DNA of 64,000 nucleotides, from NCBI GenBank assembly GCA_020849275.1, contig JADLGO010000037.1, forward strand, positions 1 through 64,000, given 5' to 3'. How positions within the stretch are numbered: the stretch's first letter is position 1; every line of letters starts with the position of its first letter. The translations under genes were made by a program, and so were the position numbers. This DNA comes from Chthonomonadales bacterium (lineage in GTDB: Bacteria > Armatimonadota > Chthonomonadetes > Chthonomonadales > CAJBBX01). Under the pieces are notes generated by a model. It was not told the DNA's origin. It saw nothing but the letters and a program-made list of their open reading frames with translations, and did not search any database. This document shows positions 21,096 to 55,034 of the stretch, piece after piece.

Positions 21096-22385
21096 ATGAA
21101 GACCTCCTTCGTCCACATCGCCGACGTGCACCTCGGCAACCGGCAGTACGGTCTCGACGAGCGGTTCGACGACTTTGGCAGGGCCTTCGCCGACGCCGTG
21201 GACCGCGCCATCGACCGCCGCGTCCGCTTCGTTCTGATCGCTGGCGACCTCTTCCACAGGCGGGCCGTGGAGCCGCTCGCGCTGCGTCAGGCGCTGCACG
21301 CCCTTAAGCGCCTTCGCGAGGCCGCGATCCCGGTCATTGCGGTCGACGGCAACCATGACCGCGCGCTCTCCGCCGACGCGTATCCCTGGACGCGCTTCCT
21401 GAGCGACGAGGGGTATCTCACGCTGCTCGACGCCATCCAGCCTGGTCAGGGAGTGCGCTACGCGCCCTGGGACCCCGAGACGGGCATCGGCTCATGGGTC
21501 GATGTGGAGGGCGTCCGCGTGGTGGGCCAGCAGTACCTGGGCGCCTCGGCCGGCGCGGCGTGCGCGGGCATGGCCGCGCAGATGGCCGAGGCCGGCCGCC
21601 GGGCCGCGTACGTCGTCTTCCTGTGCCATGCGGGCCTGGAGGGCGTCATACCCAGCTACCCCGGCTGCCTCCCCTACGAGGCGCTCACGCCGCTGCGGCA
21701 GCACGTCGACTACGTGGCGCTCGGCCATATCCATCGCCGCTACGCCCGCGACGGTTGGGTCTACAACCCCGGCTCGCTGGAGGTCTGCGGGTTCGATGAG
21801 GCGGACGCGGAGCACGGTTTCCACGTGGTTGATGTCGACACGGCTTCGCCGGAGCGTCATCGGGTCCTGTATGAACCCGCGAAGCGTCGGCCGTTCGTGC
21901 GGCTGCGGCTGGACGTGGGCGGCTGCGACTCGCCCGCCGAGGTGGACCGGGCCGTGGAGCGGGCGGCGGCCGCCGCCGCTCGGGCCGATGGCGGCGCGTC
22001 GCCGGTGGCCGAGGTGGCGCTCACCGGTCAACTGCGCTTTCGCGCGGCCGAACTCGACCTGCGCGCTCTGGAGGCCGTCGCGCGGCAGGCGCTGGGCGCG
22101 CTGCACGTGGAGATGCGCTGCCACGCCGCGATACCGGGGGTGGACCCGGACGAGTACCGCGAGTTCTCGCGCGACGAGCTGGAGACGGCCGTGCTCACGG
22201 CGCTCTTCGGTCGCGACGAGCGCCGCCGTGCCAACGCATCCCGTTGGGCCGACCTGGCGCGCGGCGTGAAGGACCTTGCCCTGGCGGATGCCTCGCCCGA
22301 GGCGATCGCCGAGACCGTGGAGCGCGCCGCGTGCGGGCTGCGGGCCGCGCACACGGCGGCGGCCGCGGAGCAGGCGCCGTGCTGA
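21096..22385 (+). CDS. Mre11/SbcD-like DNA double-strand-break nuclease subunit
   Basis: The 429-residue calcineurin-like phosphoesterase carries the five metal-binding motifs in order: ADVHLG (D10, H12), GDLFH (D51), GNHD (N86, H87), the His in LCHAGLEG (H178) and GHIHRR (H211, H213). This set is diagnostic of the Mre11/SbcD nuclease, which with Rad50/SbcC binds and trims DNA ends in a Mn-dependent manner. The C-terminal third (about 265-429) would hold the capping and Rad50-binding regions. Its TGA overlaps the GTG start of the Rad50-like gene. The company of NurA and HerA, rather than a lone sbcDC pair, makes archaeal-style Mre11 the closer analogy. Confidence 0.93.
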   Translation: MKTSFVHIADVHLGNRQYGLDERFDDFGRAFADAVDRAIDRRVRFVLIAGDLFHRRAVEPLALRQALHALKRLREAAIPVIAVDGNHDRALSADAYPWTRFLSDEGYLTLLDAIQPGQGVRYAPWDPETGIGSWVDVEGVRVVGQQYLGASAGAACAGMAAQMAEAGRRAAYVVFLCHAGLEGVIPSYPGCLPYEALTPLRQHVDYVALGHIHRRYARDGWVYNPGSLEVCGFDEADAEHGFHVVDVDTASPERHRVLYEPAKRRPFVRLRLDVGGCDSPAEVDRAVERAAAAAARADGGASPVAEVALTGQLRFRAAELDLRALEAVARQALGALHVEMRCHAAIPGVDPDEYREFSRDELETAVLTALFGRDERRRANASRWADLARGVKDLALADASPEAIAETVERAACGLRAAHTAAAAEQAPC

Positions 22386-25075
22386 TCCGCAGCGTCGAGC
22401 TGCGCGACTTCAAGTCGCACGCCCGCACGACCGCACGTTTCGCGCCGGGCACCAACGCGATCTGCGGCGAGAACACGGCCGGCAAGACGACGCTACTCCA
22501 GGCGATCGGGCTCGCCCTGTTCGACTACCCCCCGCGGGATCGGGAGGAGTTGGTGCGTGAGGGCGCCAGGACCGCGGTGATCACGGTCGCCTTCGAGTCG
22601 GCGCGCGACGAGCGGCTCTACGAGGTGACGCGGCGCATCGGCGCGGGCGCGGCGTGGCAGGTGCTCGACCCCGAGGTCGGTGTCCGGCTGGCGAGCGACG
22701 CCGCGGAGGTGCAGCGGTGGCTCCGCGAGCACTTCGGCCTGTCGCCTTCCACCGACCTGCGCTCGCTCTTCGAGAGCGCCGTCGGCGTGCCGCAGGGCGA
22801 GGTCGCTAGCATCTTCCTGCAGCCAGCGGGCGTGCGCGCTCCGTGCTTCAACCGAATCCTCCGCGTGGAGGAGTACCGCGACGCGTACGGGCGGCTGCTC
22901 CCGACGCTCAGCTACCTGCGCGAGCGCATCGCGGGCTGCGAGGTAGCCATCGCCGGCCTGGCCGGCCGCACGGAGGATCTGCCGCGCCTCGAGGAGCAGG
23001 AGCGTGCGCTGCGCGGCGAGATCGTGGTCCTGGAGGCCCGCGTCGCCGAGTTGGCGGGGCGCGGGGCCGCGCTCGGCGAAGAAGACCGCGCGCTGGAGGG
23101 CCGGCGGGAGGCTCTCGATTCGGCGCGTCGCGCGCTGGAGACGCGCCGGGCGAGCCGCGAGCTCGCGGAGGAGCGAGCCGCCGCCGCCCGCGTGCTGCTG
23201 GACCAGGCCGCCGCTGCCGCGCGAGCCGTTGAGGAGGCGAGCGAAGGGCACGTGGCCTACCTGGCCGCCGAGCGCGAGGCGCGCGACCTGCAGGAGCGGC
23301 AGGCCGAGCGAGATCGGCTTCGCCAGGCACGGGGGGCCGTGGAGGCCCGTCGCGCCGCCGCGCGAAGCGCGCGCGAGGCGCTCGGCGCCGAGTTGGCGCG
23401 GATCGAGTGCGCCGCGGCCGAGGTGGTCCGTCTTGCCTCCGGAGTTCTCGAGCAGACGCGGCTGGAGGGGGAGGTCGGCTCGGCTCGCAAGCGCGCCGAC
23501 CGGCTGGTCGAGCTGGAGCGCGGCCGTCCCGCGCTTGCGGGGCGCGCGGCGCGCCTGGTGGAGCGAGTCGCGCGGTGCGACGCCGACCTGGAGCGCCTGG
23601 CCCGCCTCGCGCCGCTGTCGGCAGAGGTCGAGAGCCGCCAGACCGCGCTGGACGCGGCGCGCCGGCGCGTGGCCGACCTCGAGGCCGACCAGCGCGCCAA
23701 TCGTGGCGGTCGTCGCTACAGCGAGGGCGGTCTCTGCCCATTCCTGAAGGAGACCTGCCGCAACGTTGCCGGCCGGGGAGGCACGCTCGCGGGGTTCTTC
23801 GAGGAGCGGCTGCAGGCGATCGGCGCGGAGCTGGAGGCCGCGGGCGCGGAGGCGCAGGTCCGGGAGCGCGCCCTGGCGGAGGCCCGCGATGCCGCGAAGG
23901 CGCTGGCCGCGCGCGCTCCGCTGGAGCGGGAGCGCGCGGGGCTGACCGAGCAACTGGTGGCGGAGCGGAAGGAGCTTGCCACGCTGGACCGCGAGCGCGC
24001 CGCCCTGGCCGGCGCCGCGGCGGCGCTCGGCGAGGCGCAGGCCGCGCTTGAGGCGCTGGGCGCGCCGCCCGCCGACCCGCGCACGCGCAGCGAGGTGGCG
24101 CGCTCGGCCGCGGCGCGGCGGCCCGAGGTGGAGAAGGCGATCGCGGAGCGGGAGCGCGCGCTCTCGGCGCTCGAGGCGGAGCTGCGCGCGGCCGACGACG
24201 CGCTGGGCCCGTGCGCCGACCTGGATGAGCGCCTCCGCGCCAACCGCGCGGCCCTGGAGCGTTACCGGGCCGCGAACATCGCCTGGCTGGCCAACCGCGA
24301 GGCCGCCTCCGAGGTCTCCGCTCGCCGCCAGGCGCTGCGCGAGCGCGAGGCTGAGGCCACGCGGGCGTCGGGGGCGGCCACTGCCGCCGAGGAGGTCGCC
24401 GCCGCCGCCGCGAAGGCCTACGATGCGGGGCATCACGCGCGGGTGCGCGCGGACCGCGCCGAGGCCGAGGCTGGCCGAGCCGCGGCCGGCGCCGAGCTCG
24501 CCGCCCGCCAGCAGCAGGCGGCCGCGCTGGAGGAGCAGATCGTTGGGCGGCGGCGCCTGCTGGAGGAACTGGCCGCCGCGCGTGCCGAGCACGCGCGCTG
24601 GACCGACCTGCACGGCGTGCTCGCGCACCTGCGGGACGCCATCAAGGAGGCGGGCCCGATGGTAACGGCCGCGCTCGTGCGCGGCGTCTCGCACGCTGCC
24701 AACCGCATCTTCGGCGACCTGATCGGCGATCACAGCCTTCGCCTGCGCTGGACCGAGGACTACGAGATCCGTCTGGAGCAGCAGGGCCGCGAGCGCGGAC
24801 TGCACCCCGCCGCCGGTAGTGAGCGCGTGACCGCCGCGCTCGCGGTGCGCCTGGCCCTGCTGCAGAGCCTGGGCGAGGTGCGCTTCGCCTTCTTCGACGA
24901 ACCGACGATCCACCTGGACGAGACGCGGCGCTTGGCGCTGGTGGATCAGCTTCAGAGCCTGCGCGGCTTTGATCAGCTCTTCGTGATCAGCCACGACGAC
25001 ACGTTCGAGCGCGCCACGGGCCATGTGGTGCGCGTGGAGAAGCGCGACGGCGTGAGCGTCGTCGCCGACGGGTGA
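22379..25075 (+). CDS. Rad50/SbcC-like SMC-family ATPase with CX6C hook
   Basis: The 898-residue protein has an ABC-type ATPase split by a long coiled coil. Walker A is GENTAGKTT (30-38), where GENGAGKT is usual. The signature region is GSERVTAALAVRLALLQSLG, and Walker B with D-loop is RFAFFDEPTIHLDE (around 835-848). The coiled coil is very rich in Ala, Glu and Arg. Near its centre lies LCPFLKETCRN with C453 and C460, probably the metal hook for dimerisation, but spaced CX6C instead of CXXC. The GTG start at 22379 overlaps the upstream stop by several bases. It partners the Mre11-like subunit to tether and process DNA ends. AT-poor composition matches its neighbours, so recent transfer is not indicated. 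Confidence 0.92.
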   Translation: MLIRSVELRDFKSHARTTARFAPGTNAICGENTAGKTTLLQAIGLALFDYPPRDREELVREGARTAVITVAFESARDERLYEVTRRIGAGAAWQVLDPEVGVRLASDAAEVQRWLREHFGLSPSTDLRSLFESAVGVPQGEVASIFLQPAGVRAPCFNRILRVEEYRDAYGRLLPTLSYLRERIAGCEVAIAGLAGRTEDLPRLEEQERALRGEIVVLEARVAELAGRGAALGEEDRALEGRREALDSARRALETRRASRELAEERAAAARVLLDQAAAAARAVEEASEGHVAYLAAEREARDLQERQAERDRLRQARGAVEARRAAARSAREALGAELARIECAAAEVVRLASGVLEQTRLEGEVGSARKRADRLVELERGRPALAGRAARLVERVARCDADLERLARLAPLSAEVESRQTALDAARRRVADLEADQRANRGGRRYSEGGLCPFLKETCRNVAGRGGTLAGFFEERLQAIGAELEAAGAEAQVRERALAEARDAAKALAARAPLERERAGLTEQLVAERKELATLDRERAALAGAAAALGEAQAALEALGAPPADPRTRSEVARSAAARRPEVEKAIAERERALSALEAELRAADDALGPCADLDERLRANRAALERYRAANIAWLANREAASEVSARRQALREREAEATRASGAATAAEEVAAAAAKAYDAGHHARVRADRAEAEAGRAAAGAELAARQQQAAALEEQIVGRRRLLEELAAARAEHARWTDLHGVLAHLRDAIKEAGPMVTAALVRGVSHAANRIFGDLIGDHSLRLRWTEDYEIRLEQQGRERGLHPAAGSERVTAALAVRLALLQSLGEVRFAFFDEPTIHLDETRRLALVDQLQSLRGFDQLFVISHDDTFERATGHVVRVEKRDGVSVVADG

Positions 25076-25084
25076 GGGGCGCCC

Positions 25085-26269
25085 ATGCTGATCCCCGCGC
25101 AGATCGCCCGGGCGCTCGAGATGGCGAGCCAGGGCTTCACGGAGCACCGCGAAGCCGCCGCCGCGACGGCGGCCCGCTACTGCCAGGCGCTGGAGTCGCT
25201 GGGCGCGCTGTCGGCTGCCGAGATTCGGGACCGGGCGCGGAGCCTGGCCGTCCCCGGCGCCCTGCCGACCGACGAGCACGACGCGACGGGCGGCGTGGTC
25301 CGCTTCGAGCCTCGCTTCGCCCACCACGAGGAGGCGCGCGGCTGGGCCGCCGGCGTCCTGCGCGGCGTGCCAGTGCTGGCCATTGACGGCTCGCAGATCC
25401 CGGCCGCCGCCGAGCTCTCGGTTCCCGTCGCGGTCGCGCAGGTGGGTTGGTTTCTCAATCCGCACGACTCTGGGCGGCCCTACGACAAGGGCGTGCGCGC
25501 CGTCGTGCTGACGCCGCGCGACCTGCGCTCCGATGGCCTGGAGGGGGACTACGTCGCCTCCAACGTGGTGGCGCTGCGCCGCTTTGAGCTGGAGGCGGGG
25601 CAGGCGGCGGAGGCCATGGAGGGTCAGCCGAGCTCGGGCCTGGTCGTGCTCTTCGACGGCTCGCTCGTCGTCACGTTCGCGGAGTTGTACGTGAAGCCCC
25701 TGCGCGCCCGCTATCTAGCCGCCATTCTTCGCTTGCTGGCGGCGTCGGGACGTGCCGGCGTGCCGGTGGTCGGCTACATCGACTCCAGCCGCGCGCGCGA
25801 CCTGTGCAAGCTCGTGGAGGGTCTCTTTCGCGCGGAGGGCGACGCACCGGTGACCGACGCCGGGCTCCTGGCCGGGCGTCTGGACTGGGGCGACCGCACG
25901 CCGGTCTACCGCTGCGCCCGTGGCGGAATCCTCGCGGACTACGTGAGCGCGGAGCACGGCGACCATCGCGGTGGAGTCTGCTTCGTCTACCTGCAACTGG
26001 CCACAGGGCAGCCTCCGGCGCGCGTGGAGTTCCCCTCCTGGGTCTACGACGCCGGCCTGCACGAGCGCCTGCTGGACGTGGTCCGCGCGGAGGTGGTGGC
26101 CGGCGCGGGCGGCTACCCCTACGCCCTCGAGACCGCCGACGCGGTGGCGGTGATCACGGCCGAGGACCGGGACCGGTTCTACGCGCTGTTCGAGCGATTC
26201 GCCGAAAGAAACCGGCTCGGCTTCCGGCGCTCGGCGAAGGCAGGCAGCAAGGCGCGCCGCCGCGCGTGA
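25085..26269 (+). CDS. nurA: NurA-domain 5'-3' nuclease
   Basis: The 394-residue protein carries NurA hallmarks: LAIDGSQ (catalytic Asp D101) and VVLFDGSL (second Asp D191), then VPVVGYIDSSRARDL, and C-terminal acidic/His positions in HERLLDVVRAE and YPYALETADAVAVI. NurA is an RNase-H-like nuclease that forms a complex with the HerA translocase and resects 5' strands after Mre11-Rad50 has opened a break. The gene starts 9 bases after the Rad50-like stop, with GAGGGG upstream of ATG 25085, and lies two genes before herA. Length is normal for NurA (about 330-400). Confidence 0.9.
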   Translation: MLIPAQIARALEMASQGFTEHREAAAATAARYCQALESLGALSAAEIRDRARSLAVPGALPTDEHDATGGVVRFEPRFAHHEEARGWAAGVLRGVPVLAIDGSQIPAAAELSVPVAVAQVGWFLNPHDSGRPYDKGVRAVVLTPRDLRSDGLEGDYVASNVVALRRFELEAGQAAEAMEGQPSSGLVVLFDGSLVVTFAELYVKPLRARYLAAILRLLAASGRAGVPVVGYIDSSRARDLCKLVEGLFRAEGDAPVTDAGLLAGRLDWGDRTPVYRCARGGILADYVSAEHGDHRGGVCFVYLQLATGQPPARVEFPSWVYDAGLHERLLDVVRAEVVAGAGGYPYALETADAVAVITAEDRDRFYALFERFAERNRLGFRRSAKAGSKARRRA

Positions 26270-26375
26270 GCGGCTTACGCCGTTTCCGGCGCGGCGCGCC
26301 CACGACGAGTGATCCGGCAGGCGGACCCGCGCGGCGGCCGCCTGGCAGGCGCTCCCAACGGAGGACGCGCGACGC

Positions 26376-26963
26376 ATGGAGATCGGCAGGATCGTGATGG
26401 CCAACTCGCACCTGGACTACGTGGCGCAAGTGTACGGCCCGTCGGAGGCGGCAGCCGTGCCGGCGCCCGAGGACTTCAGCTTCGGCACCTTCACCCTGAT
26501 CCGTGCGGGTGAGCGGGACGGCGACGGGCTCGTGGCCGTGGTCTACGACACGCTGCTCGTCAACCCGGACTTCGGGCGACAGGGGCCCCGGCTCTCGCCG
26601 CCCGGCGACGTGGGCGTCTTCGCGCCCGACTACCTCAACGAGCAGGCGACGCTCGTGGGGCTCGCGGTGCTGGGGCGGTGCCAGGACGGCGCCTACGCGC
26701 AGGGCGTGTCCCGGGTGGCTGCGCAGGCGAACGCGCCCGTGGACACGATGGACGACGCCGCGTTCGCGCGTTTCCACCGTGACGGGAGCGGCGTGGCGCT
26801 CCGCTACGCTCCGATCCTGCAGGCGCAGGGCAAGCTCCTGCTGAGCGAGCTGCTCCAGCAGGTTGTCCGCCGCCTGGAGGGCGCGTTTCCGGCGCGAGCG
26901 GAGCATCTCCGCACGCTGCGGGCGAACCTGCTATGGCAGTCGCGCGTGGAGGCGCAGCGATGA
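26376..26963 (+). CDS. small conserved protein between nurA and herA, HAS-barrel candidate
   Basis: The 195-residue acidic soluble protein has no signal peptide or TM. Its N-terminal 110 residues look all-beta (GRIVMANSHLDYVAQVYGP, FSFGTFTLIRAG, LVAVVYDTLLVNPDFG) and end in ARLGxx-like turns. The C-terminus is helical (LLLSELLQQVVRRLEG). HerA proteins carry an N-terminal HAS beta-barrel; a free-standing barrel encoded just before herA and coupled to it by an ATGA overlap (26960-26963) would fit an accessory or assembly subunit. This function is inference from position and pattern. GGAGGA near 26360 is the likely ribosome site. It could also be an unrelated operon protein. Confidence 0.6.
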   Translation: MEIGRIVMANSHLDYVAQVYGPSEAAAVPAPEDFSFGTFTLIRAGERDGDGLVAVVYDTLLVNPDFGRQGPRLSPPGDVGVFAPDYLNEQATLVGLAVLGRCQDGAYAQGVSRVAAQANAPVDTMDDAAFARFHRDGSGVALRYAPILQAQGKLLLSELLQQVVRRLEGAFPARAEHLRTLRANLLWQSRVEAQR

Positions 26964-28624
26964 CGCAACGTGAAGACACGCCGGTCGGGACGGTCCGCGG
27001 GCCCGGCGACAGCGCGCACGAGTACGTGTTCGTGACGCAGGATCCCGAGCAGCGCGTCGGCTACGGGGAGTTCGTGACGTACCGCGCCCTGGCCGACGGT
27101 GAGGAGCGGGCGATCTTCGGGCGAGTCAGCGCGCGCGTGCCGGAGCGGCGCTACCCCGTCGGCTTGCTGGCGGCGCCCGGCGCGCCGCCCGACGAGATCG
27201 CCGCAATGCTGGGCTACGATGCCGATCTCGGCGGGACGGAGCTCGACGCGGTGACCGCCACGGTGCTCGGGTATCACGACGCGGCGCTCGGCGAGTTCGT
27301 GAACCCGCGCTGCCCGCCACGGCAGGGCATGCCCGTGCGCATCGCCGGTGACGCGGAGCTGATGGCCGTGCTGGGCAGCAGGCGCCGAGGCGAGGTCGGC
27401 TCGGCGGAGGTGGGCAGCCTGCTCAGTCGGCCACAGGGCGCCGTGCCGATCGTCCTGGACGTGCGCGCCATCACGAGCACCCACCTGGCCATCATCGCCG
27501 GCACCGGCTCGGGCAAGAGCTACCTGGCGGGCGTGCTGCTGGAGGAGATGCTCCAGCCCTGGAATCGGGCCGCCGTGCTGGTGATCGACCCGCACGGCGA
27601 ATACGGCACGCTCGACCGGCTCGCTGACTGCGAGGCGCTGCGCGGCGACGATGGCTATCGTCCGGAGGCGCGCATCGTGCACCCCGGAGACATCCGCGTG
27701 AAGCTCTGCTCGCTCCAGCGCGGCGACTTTCGCTACCTGATGCCCGAAATGAGCGAGCGCATGTTCCACGTGCTCGAGGAGGCGATCCGCCGGCTGGAGC
27801 GGGAGCGCCGGGGCGCATGGACGCTCGACGACCTGCTGCGCGCCGTGGAGGGGAGCGACCCCACGGAGCGAGGCGAGCCCGGCATGACCGCGTTCGCGCT
27901 GCACTGGCGGCTCAAGTCTACCTTCCGCGACGCCACCGACATCTTCTCGGACCACGAGAACCTGCGCCTGGACGATCTGTTCGCGCCGGGCCGCTGCACC
28001 GTGCTGCAGCTCAACGAGGTGGACCACCGCGCGCAGCAGGCCGTCGTGGCCACGCTCCTGCGGCGTCTCTACGCGGCACGCATGCGCACGCACAGGGGCC
28101 AGGCGGACGAGGACGGCGCCGACTACCTGCCGTTCCCGGTCTTCACGTTGATCGAGGAGGCGCACAACTTCGCGCCGGCCTCCGGGGACGGAATCGCGAC
28201 CGGCATTCTGAAGACGATCCTGGGAGAGGGACGCAAGTTCGGAGTGGGTGTCGGGCTGATCAGCCAGCGGCCGGGCCGGCTCGACGGCGACGCGCTCTCG
28301 CAGTGCATGACGCAGTTCCTGCTGCGCATCGTCAACCCGCTTGATCAGGAGAGCGTGTCGCGCGCGGTGGAAGGGGTGGGCCGCGATCTGCTGCGCGAGC
28401 TCCCGGCGCTCAGCAAGGGCCAGGCGCTGATGGCCGGACGCGCGGTGAACACGCCGGTGCTTTGCCGCGTGCGACAGCGCCTGACGCCGCACGGCGCGGA
28501 GGACCCGGATGCACCGGCGGCCTGGGTGGAGTACCACCGGCGCGCGGCCCAGGAGGAGCAGCGGAAGCTCGCGCTGCCTGGCGCAGCCGCCCGCGTGACG
28601 CCGCGCTCGCCCTTCCGTACCTGA
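26960..28624 (+). CDS. herA: HerA-type FtsK/VirB4-like hexameric DNA translocase
   Basis: The 554-residue ATPase has an N-terminal beta-rich region (about 1-150) consistent with a HAS barrel. Walker A is AGTGSGKSYL (G181-K186), and VLVIDPHGEYGTL is a HerA hallmark. Walker B is FTLIEEAHNF with E399/E400. The segment GEGRKFGVGVGLISQRPGRL contains the sensor and arginine residues near 435-440. HerA pumps DNA and stimulates NurA nuclease within the same complex. The start overlaps the small upstream gene as ATGA. This is the last gene of the five-gene repair operon; the next gene starts 30 bases later with its own ribosome site and an unrelated function. Confidence 0.93.
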   Translation: MTQREDTPVGTVRGPGDSAHEYVFVTQDPEQRVGYGEFVTYRALADGEERAIFGRVSARVPERRYPVGLLAAPGAPPDEIAAMLGYDADLGGTELDAVTATVLGYHDAALGEFVNPRCPPRQGMPVRIAGDAELMAVLGSRRRGEVGSAEVGSLLSRPQGAVPIVLDVRAITSTHLAIIAGTGSGKSYLAGVLLEEMLQPWNRAAVLVIDPHGEYGTLDRLADCEALRGDDGYRPEARIVHPGDIRVKLCSLQRGDFRYLMPEMSERMFHVLEEAIRRLERERRGAWTLDDLLRAVEGSDPTERGEPGMTAFALHWRLKSTFRDATDIFSDHENLRLDDLFAPGRCTVLQLNEVDHRAQQAVVATLLRRLYAARMRTHRGQADEDGADYLPFPVFTLIEEAHNFAPASGDGIATGILKTILGEGRKFGVGVGLISQRPGRLDGDALSQCMTQFLLRIVNPLDQESVSRAVEGVGRDLLRELPALSKGQALMAGRAVNTPVLCRVRQRLTPHGAEDPDAPAAWVEYHRRAAQEEQRKLALPGAAARVTPRSPFRT

Positions 28625-50089: not shown

Positions 50090-50566
50090 CTATCTGCCAA
50101 CGGAACCCTCACCGTCCCTTTCGGCGATATCTCGCCAGTGCTTGGCCGGGATGAAGCGCGCCAAGTGCCCAACATTATCGCTGGCCACGATAATCTCGTC
50201 GGCGGGAACTCCTGCCGTGAGCGCCTGGGCTGCCAGGATCACGTCCCCATCCAGGGACTTCGCATCGGCGGTGGGCTGCCCCTGCCGCCGGGCCTCTGCC
50301 CAGAGGCGAGCCGCCAGCACCATCGCCTCCGTGGTGATGGGCAGGTACTCCAGCGCCTCCTTGACGCGGTCCAGGCGGGCAAGACCAGCACTCTTGGTGG
50401 CGCGCAGCAGCTCGCGGCGCACTTCATAGTCGGCGATCTCCGGCACGAGCACCCGGATGCCGGCCGCAATCTGCGCTTCCAGCCACTGCTGGCAGGCGTC
50501 GTTCAGGGGTGAGGATTTTGGGTTGGAGACCCTGCCGAGTGGTCCGGCATCCAGTGCAATGACCAT
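50090..50566 (-). CDS. VapC-like PIN domain toxin
   Basis: The 158-residue PIN domain protein has the usual acidic residues: D6 in IALDAGPLGR, E43/E48 in VPEIADYEVRREL, the LDGDVILAAQAL region and D129 in IVASDNVGHL. VapC toxins are Mg-dependent RNases, often against initiator tRNA or rRNA. Its start overlaps the stop of the antitoxin gene by one base (TGATG at 50564-50568), as expected for a toxin-antitoxin pair. The gene lies inside the interval bracketed by the 193-bp repeat, next to an IS remnant, suggesting acquisition with mobile DNA. Confidence 0.82.
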   Translation of the reverse strand: MVIALDAGPLGRVSNPKSSPLNDACQQWLEAQIAAGIRVLVPEIADYEVRRELLRATKSAGLARLDRVKEALEYLPITTEAMVLAARLWAEARRQGQPTADAKSLDGDVILAAQALTAGVPADEIIVASDNVGHLARFIPAKHWRDIAERDGEGSVGR

Positions 50567-54614: not shown

Positions 54615-55034
54615 CTACGGCAGGCTGCCGCCCGCGCTGGTGCAGACCAGCTTCCCGTGCTTGACGCCTCTGGCCGAGATAAGCGCGGACGCGATCGCCT
54701 GGACCCTGGCCGCCGAGCCGCGCAGCACCACCACCTCCATGCAGTTGTGCGCGTCGAGATGGATATGCGTGGAGCAGAGGACGGATGCGTGGTGCTCATG
54801 CTGGAGCCGCGTCAGCATCCGGGCCAGGCCGGGCCGTCCATGGCCGAACACGAGGGTGGCGACCCCCACCACCCGGGTGTCGGCGTCTTCCCACTCCGCG
54901 TCGACGATGGCATCCCGCATCAGATCCCGCACCGCCTCCGAGCGGTTGGCGTAGCCCTGGTCGGCGATCCGCCGGTCGAATGCCTCGGCCAGGTCGCCCG
55001 GAATGGAGACGCTGAACCGCACGATGCTGCTCAT
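54615..55034 (-). CDS. nikR: NikR-type nickel-responsive ribbon-helix-helix regulator
   Basis: The 139-residue protein has an N-terminal ribbon-helix-helix (VRFSVSIPGDLAEAFDRRIA, RSEAVRDLMRDA) and an ACT-like C-terminal domain with the nickel site CSTHIHLDAHNCMEVVVLRG (His, His and Cys ligands in the usual spacing) plus the upstream His in LTRLQHEHHAS. NikR binds palindromes as a tetramer when nickel is present. ATG 55034 has AAGGAG 5 bases upstream. No nickel transporter or urease/hydrogenase gene lies in the window, but a NikR-like palindrome lies at 55209-55235 in the divergent spacer. Confidence 0.9.
   Translation of the reverse strand: MSSIVRFSVSIPGDLAEAFDRRIADQGYANRSEAVRDLMRDAIVDAEWEDADTRVVGVATLVFGHGRPGLARMLTRLQHEHHASVLCSTHIHLDAHNCMEVVVLRGSAARVQAIASALISARGVKHGKLVCTSAGGSLP

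Follow-up and report, generated by a model that had tools for sequence, protein, structure and literature searches.

A herA-mre11-rad50-nurA operon was reportedly described in archaea (Sulfolobus, Thermococcus) by Constantinesco in 2004. The HerA and NurA proteins of Deinococcus and Thermococcus have been shown to work in vitro as two components (PMC9960219; PMC12977600). The six HAS domains of HerA form a crown on which the NurA dimer is seated (PMC9960219; PMC12977600), and in Thermococcus kodakarensis HAS helix alpha1 and the loop preceding it contact NurA (PMC12977600). These two-component studies disagree on the outcome, which is one-strand resection in one case and destruction of both strands in the other (PMC9960219 versus PMC12977600). 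According to a 2023 structural study of the Deinococcus proteins, bacterial NurA-HerA is limited to few bacteria, e.g., Deinococcus-Thermus (PMC9960219).

In this study, a stretch of 64,000 nucleotides (the window; positions 1 to 64,000 of contig JADLGO010000037.1) from a Chthonomonadales bacterium of the phylum Armatimonadota was analyzed. The genome bearing it is 4.8 Mb in size and 99.9% complete. In an earlier note made from the sequence alone, five co-directional genes were described as a bacterial Mre11-Rad50-NurA-HerA set of the archaeal type, with a small fifth gene. The five genes were confirmed from the open reading frames and all are intact (Table 1); the archaeal-type set is likewise supported, the four known genes being clustered and co-directional. 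The archaeal operon encodes the same four proteins in the same clustered, co-directional manner; however, the order here is mre11-rad50-nurA-X-herA, and the fifth gene, with its predicted HAS-barrel product, is absent from the archaeal loci examined. The Deinococcus-Thermus system (drHerA/drNurA; PMC9960219) is also a bacterial HerA-NurA in which the HAS domain of HerA docks NurA, but it is two-component, lacks Mre11-Rad50 in the operon, and occurs in hosts without RecBCD/AddAB, whereas in our case AddAB-like enzymes coexist with the operon and a third gene is present. Defense HerA systems (SIR2-HerA/Nezha, DUF4297-HerA, TdpAB) share the HerA hexamer with HAS barrels, and their HAS region is matched by the small-protein model; unlike the window locus, they possess a SIR2/DUF4297-type effector and neither Mre11-Rad50 nor a solo HAS protein. 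We consider it probable (roughly 60%) that this is a bacterial operon for DNA-end processing of the Chloroflexota kind, complete in Mre11, Rad50, NurA, and HerA, with the small HAS-barrel protein as a third HerA-NurA component.

Table 1. Genes of the operon and the most conserved stretch of the small protein (positions in the window).
Feature	Position	Strand	Description
mre11	21096..22385	+	429 aa; Mre11/SbcD-type phosphoesterase, archaeal-like
rad50	22379..25075	+	898 aa, GTG start; SMC-like ATPase
nurA	25085..26269	+	394 aa; NurA nuclease
small gene	26376..26963	+	195 aa; predicted free-standing HAS-barrel protein, without ATPase domain
most conserved stretch of small protein	26541..26594	+	residues 56-73, VYDTLLVNPDFGRQGPRL; conservation profile
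herA	26960..28624	+	554 aa; HerA of archaeal/Chloroflexota type, a hexameric ATPase that pumps DNA; own N-terminal HAS domain

The genes mre11 and rad50 overlap by 7 bp, rad50 and nurA are separated by 9 bp, and the small gene overlaps herA by 4 bp (ATGA), the herA start codon (ATG at 26960) overlapping the small-gene stop. The 106 bp gap between nurA and the small gene is the sole loose junction. Many Chloroflexota genomes have the same genes in the same order, which indicates that the cluster is not due to chance. Pfam matches were obtained for Metallophos (mre11, 1e-13), SMC_N (rad50, 2e-13; AAA_23 also), NurA (2e-34), and DUF87/HerA (9e-37). The best NCBIfam models for Mre11, Rad50, and HerA are archaeal ones: the mre11 product matches Mre11_Pyroc (8e-30; sbcd 2e-11, with the canonical SbcD model below its cut-off) and the rad50 product PRK03918 Rad50 (2e-58). 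The best PDB match of HerA is the T. kodakarensis protein (9x1l, 5e-46), and its Walker A/B motifs are conserved in 42 relatives.

All Mre11 motifs noted earlier (DVH, GD, GNHD, CHxG, and GHIH) are present and were kept in an alignment of 18 operon relatives. The catalytic residues of NurA were also conserved: among 25 aligned relatives D101, E170, and D191 are invariant, and D258 and Y344 are conserved as well. Residue 352 of NurA is Asp in 26/26 window-type sequences, and His (TEAHE) in bacterial-type NurA. In Rad50, Walker A and Walker B are intact in the alignment of operon relatives, and the hook cysteines are found in a variant spacing (CPFLKETC). The ABC signature at 24806-24829 (residues ~810-817) reads AAGSER, while (L/F)SGGEQ was found in 21/21 operon relatives; judged from this degenerate signature, the Rad50 of the window copy may be altered.

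Searches of Pfam, NCBIfam, and PADLOC with the small protein gave no hit, and a single-sequence search of the PDB gave no meaningful sequence match. Its 30 homologs (family A5) align over the full length. The curated cut-off of PF09378 was not reached by the small protein, the best value among the 30 relatives being 0.075. An AlphaFold2 model was obtained with a pLDDT of 87.5 and a pTM of 0.82, poorly predicted only at residues 83-88; the modeled protein consists of a beta barrel followed by two long helices at the C-terminus (154-170 and 172-194). In a Foldseek comparison of this model with the PDB, all 47 best matches were HerA chains (E 2e-5 to 7.5e-4, probability 1.00; TM of the query moderate, 0.41-0.49), defense HerAs and the T. 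kodakarensis HerA-NurA among them, and the 48th was the HerA-family protein TdpA. With 129-144 columns aligned in the cleanest of these matches, the small protein corresponds by its predicted fold to HerA's N-terminal HAS region, minus the ATPase. The advice of the earlier note to compare it with HAS barrels thus proved right, and by its predicted fold it is a free-standing HAS-barrel protein, a copy of the HerA docking domain. The protein is not itself a HerA ATPase: at 195 aa it has no Walker motifs, and its C-terminus is helical. No significant sequence homology to the HAS N-terminus of the operon's own HerA was detected (hhalign, 0.5%); the HAS assignment is carried entirely by the fold comparison and the Pfam match of some members of a second family, A6, described below.

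The most conserved stretch of the small protein, VYDTLLVNPDFGRQGPRL, sits between two barrel strands, and the least ordered part of the model comes next. In the register of the HerA alignment, which is not significant alone, this stretch falls where the HAS domain of HerA has its NurA-docking helix/loop. Such a combination of a conserved and a less ordered segment is as would be expected of a docking loop.

Across 43 window-type HerA loci the genes are repeatedly arranged as (mre11-rad50-nurA-)small-herA, and some 20 Chloroflexota loci have kept the full five-gene operon. Gene calling recovered the small gene in 41/43. One locus that it missed (L135) holds the gene by tblastn, 97% identical to the neighbor's copy; in the remaining one, from a Pseudomonadota MAG, the small gene adjoins nurA and lies ~9 kb from herA on the same contig. 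Lack of co-occurrence with herA/nurA in relatives had been named in the earlier note as evidence that would speak against a shared machine. We surveyed 396 Anaerolineae-class genomes chosen regardless of the small gene (small-gene cut-off E < 1e-50). The small gene was found in 70/396, and window-type HerA was present in 70/70 of these; conversely, 70/71 genomes with window-type HerA carry the small gene, the exception being a partial HerA match (Fisher p 8e-78, which counts genomes and not independent events). Most copies (60/71) lie no more than 200 bp upstream of herA. In Caldilineaceae the small gene and herA are still neighbors even though nurA, mre11, and rad50 are found elsewhere in the genome; the coupling is therefore to HerA first. 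The genes upstream of the pair in this family were considered as replacement nucleases and rejected, being by eye sugar-transport permeases and secreted proteins. In total, the small gene accompanies HerA in about 100 bacterial genomes. It was absent from 37 archaeal loci retrieved by the same HerA search and from archaeal-type operons of Heimdallarchaeota (L181/L185/L196), of locus L193, and of three Armatimonadota genomes (G209-211), so the small protein is not required by every HerA-NurA. This near-absolute co-occurrence with HerA, together with the HAS-barrel fold, strongly supports the earlier proposal that the small protein belongs to the same machine.

A second branch, an older and independent lineage, was found in Armatimonadota, where a gene of 190-280 aa (family A6) lies between nurA and herA of the bacterial type. 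Alignment of the A5 and A6 profiles with hhalign gave a probability of 97.3% over 159 columns, versus 0.5% for A5 and HerA N-termini in the same tool. The first A6 HMM scored the window small protein at 3 bits, which is not significant, and the link was obtained once the Chloroflexota (A5) family had been built. A Pfam HAS-barrel match was found for 4/12 A6 members (best 5e-6). The A6 nurA-X-herA loci of Armatimonadota and Chloroflexota are like the window in that profile comparison makes X a homolog of the small gene and X occupies the same position; they differ in that HerA is 23% identical to that of the window, mre11/rad50 are usually not adjacent, and X is longer. Family A6 is present in 31/291 Armatimonadota genomes, and NurA, with the window protein as query, in 31 besides the window's own. 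The two occur together in 28/34 Armatimonadota genomes carrying either (p 3e-32), and the discordant genomes are mostly incomplete (61-69% in 4/6). In several Armatimonadota genomes nurA, A6, and herA are far apart (in G015, at 2.28 Mb, 2.23 Mb, and 0.60 Mb). Genes that co-occur without being linked argue more strongly for a common function than genes that form an operon. The genes upstream of unlinked herA in these genomes are not hidden A6 members; the A6 gene is elsewhere in the genome. As a blind check, we inspected seven genes from Anaerolineae-class genomes that match the A5 profile weakly (E 1.7e-7 to 4e-4): 6/7 adjoin nurA and/or herA, and the seventh sits on a 3.8-kb contig. NurA-HerA with Mre11-Rad50 is thus found across Chloroflexota, and a second form across Armatimonadota.

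Based on these observations and on the known docking of NurA by HAS domains, the position of the conserved VYDTLLVNPDFGRQGPRL favors an accessory subunit at the crown/NurA interface. In the proposed scheme, Mre11-Rad50 would open and clean the break, and the HerA hexamer would pump duplex into the NurA dimer seated on the crown of six HAS barrels. The small protein could bind where the crown and NurA meet, serving as an adaptor or cap to fit the ring to the dimer or to gate strand access to NurA; this last step is the least supported. We infer that the small protein is physically a subunit of HerA-NurA. More broadly, and with somewhat less than even confidence, we suggest that the free-standing HAS-barrel family is an obligate third subunit of NurA-HerA in at least two phyla (Chloroflexota and Armatimonadota), lodged between the NurA dimer and the ring of HerA and determining which strand is cut. 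The two-component in vitro work may miss a piece in these lineages, provided that the solo HAS-barrel protein is indeed a subunit. This protein might instead be a loader of the HerA ring, an assembly factor, or an inhibitor, acting before or instead of NurA binding, with the HAS barrel capping or opening the ring or occupying the NurA docking face. The retention of the small gene with herA where nurA, mre11, and rad50 are elsewhere would fit such a role, as would the translational coupling of herA to the small gene in many loci (4-bp overlaps), and a HAS barrel without an ATPase would be a natural decoy. However, A6 tracks NurA as tightly as HerA and often adjoins nurA, and nothing favors inhibition over partnership, which makes such a role unlikely. 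A subunit at the HerA-NurA interface is the reading that we prefer. A literature search yielded no account of this operon in Chloroflexota or of a HAS protein that stands alone; a 2004 FtsK-HerA survey, outside that search, may mention solo HAS barrels. In all probability the HerA machine has in this small protein a part not described before.

It had also been proposed that the operon may be an anti-phage unit. HerA-nuclease pairs are known defense systems, both strands are cut by the HerA-NurA of T. kodakarensis, for which a defense-like role has been proposed (PMC12977600), and PADLOC HerA models match the window HerA by superfamily. PADLOC nevertheless gave no match for Mre11, NurA, or the small protein. 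The operon neighbors are sugar-nucleotide, cell-wall, and metabolic genes, and the adjoining gene calls include no defense gene and no SIR2, DUF4297, or DUF4007-type partner. Conservation extends through whole bacterial families, including all sampled Caldilineaceae, rather than being scattered in islands. A nuclease system that destroys phage or plasmid DNA is accordingly unsupported here and very unlikely.

The nearest kin of the operon are in Chloroflexota. The window HerA is 47-60% identical to HerA of Anaerolineales, Ardenticatenia, Caldilineaceae, and Aggregatilineales, and 37-43% identical, over a partial match only, to the best HerA of its own phylum; its NurA is 40-46% identical to Chloroflexota NurA. 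In the HerA tree the window falls within the Chloroflexota HerA clade (100/99; four-gene tree 98.8/87), where its branch is long and the exact sister not resolved. On the basis of this kinship the operon was probably acquired by horizontal transfer, and the breadth of occurrence points to the direction Chloroflexota to Armatimonadota. The small gene was found in 0/40 close relatives of the host, which at first resembled a refutation but reflects only the horizontal acquisition. Codon use of all five open frames is host-like (GC3 0.89-0.92), so the transfer, if such, was not recent. An empty insertion site was sought by synteny in same-family genomes, in which the gene order around the operon is not conserved. 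A contaminant contig was rejected as an explanation: the purB gene that the contig also carries shares 82% identity with that of a same-family genome, and identity falls with kinship, to 70-79% for most members of the family and order and to 53-67% for most genomes elsewhere in the phylum. The Pseudomonadota genome Centralia_MAG_106 (L164, L260) carries mre11-rad50-nurA-small with herA ~9 kb off; this set is likely a further transfer of the operon, unless the MAG is mis-assigned.

The suggestion that HerA-NurA replaces a missing RecBCD/AddAB was not supported. The host genome encodes an AddB-like protein (1053 aa; TIGR02773 3e-32) and a UvrD/AddA-like protein (1133 aa), both with a PDDEXK nuclease domain, and HerA-NurA is therefore not the sole candidate resection route. 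No canonical SbcD above the family cut-off was found in the host genome; G002, a relative from the same family, has one, as does most of the order. Apart from the operon, the host has a single Mre11-like gene, which is divergent and located on contig C34 (2815-7529 of locus L230) beside a 1129-aa ATPase; by eye, this pair is YhaO/YhaN-like. As no canonical SbcCD is found elsewhere in the genome, the operon Mre11-Rad50 may stand in for it. A copy in decay, acquired horizontally and of little effect in its host, would account for the lost Rad50 signature and for the AddB-like and AddA/UvrD-like enzymes still being present, but the five frames are open with host-like codon use, the other catalytic motifs are kept, and this nearly complete genome has no canonical SbcCD elsewhere, so that decay seems quite unlikely.

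Another archaeal-type herA-mre11 set, without the small gene, was observed in one Armatimonadota family (G211, G210, G209; L112, L113, L115). It is followed by a gene for a ~920-aa protein and preceded by one for a 374-407-aa protein. In the window itself, two small genes at 54615-55034 and 50090-50452 are by eye NikR-like and PIN-domain-like, respectively.
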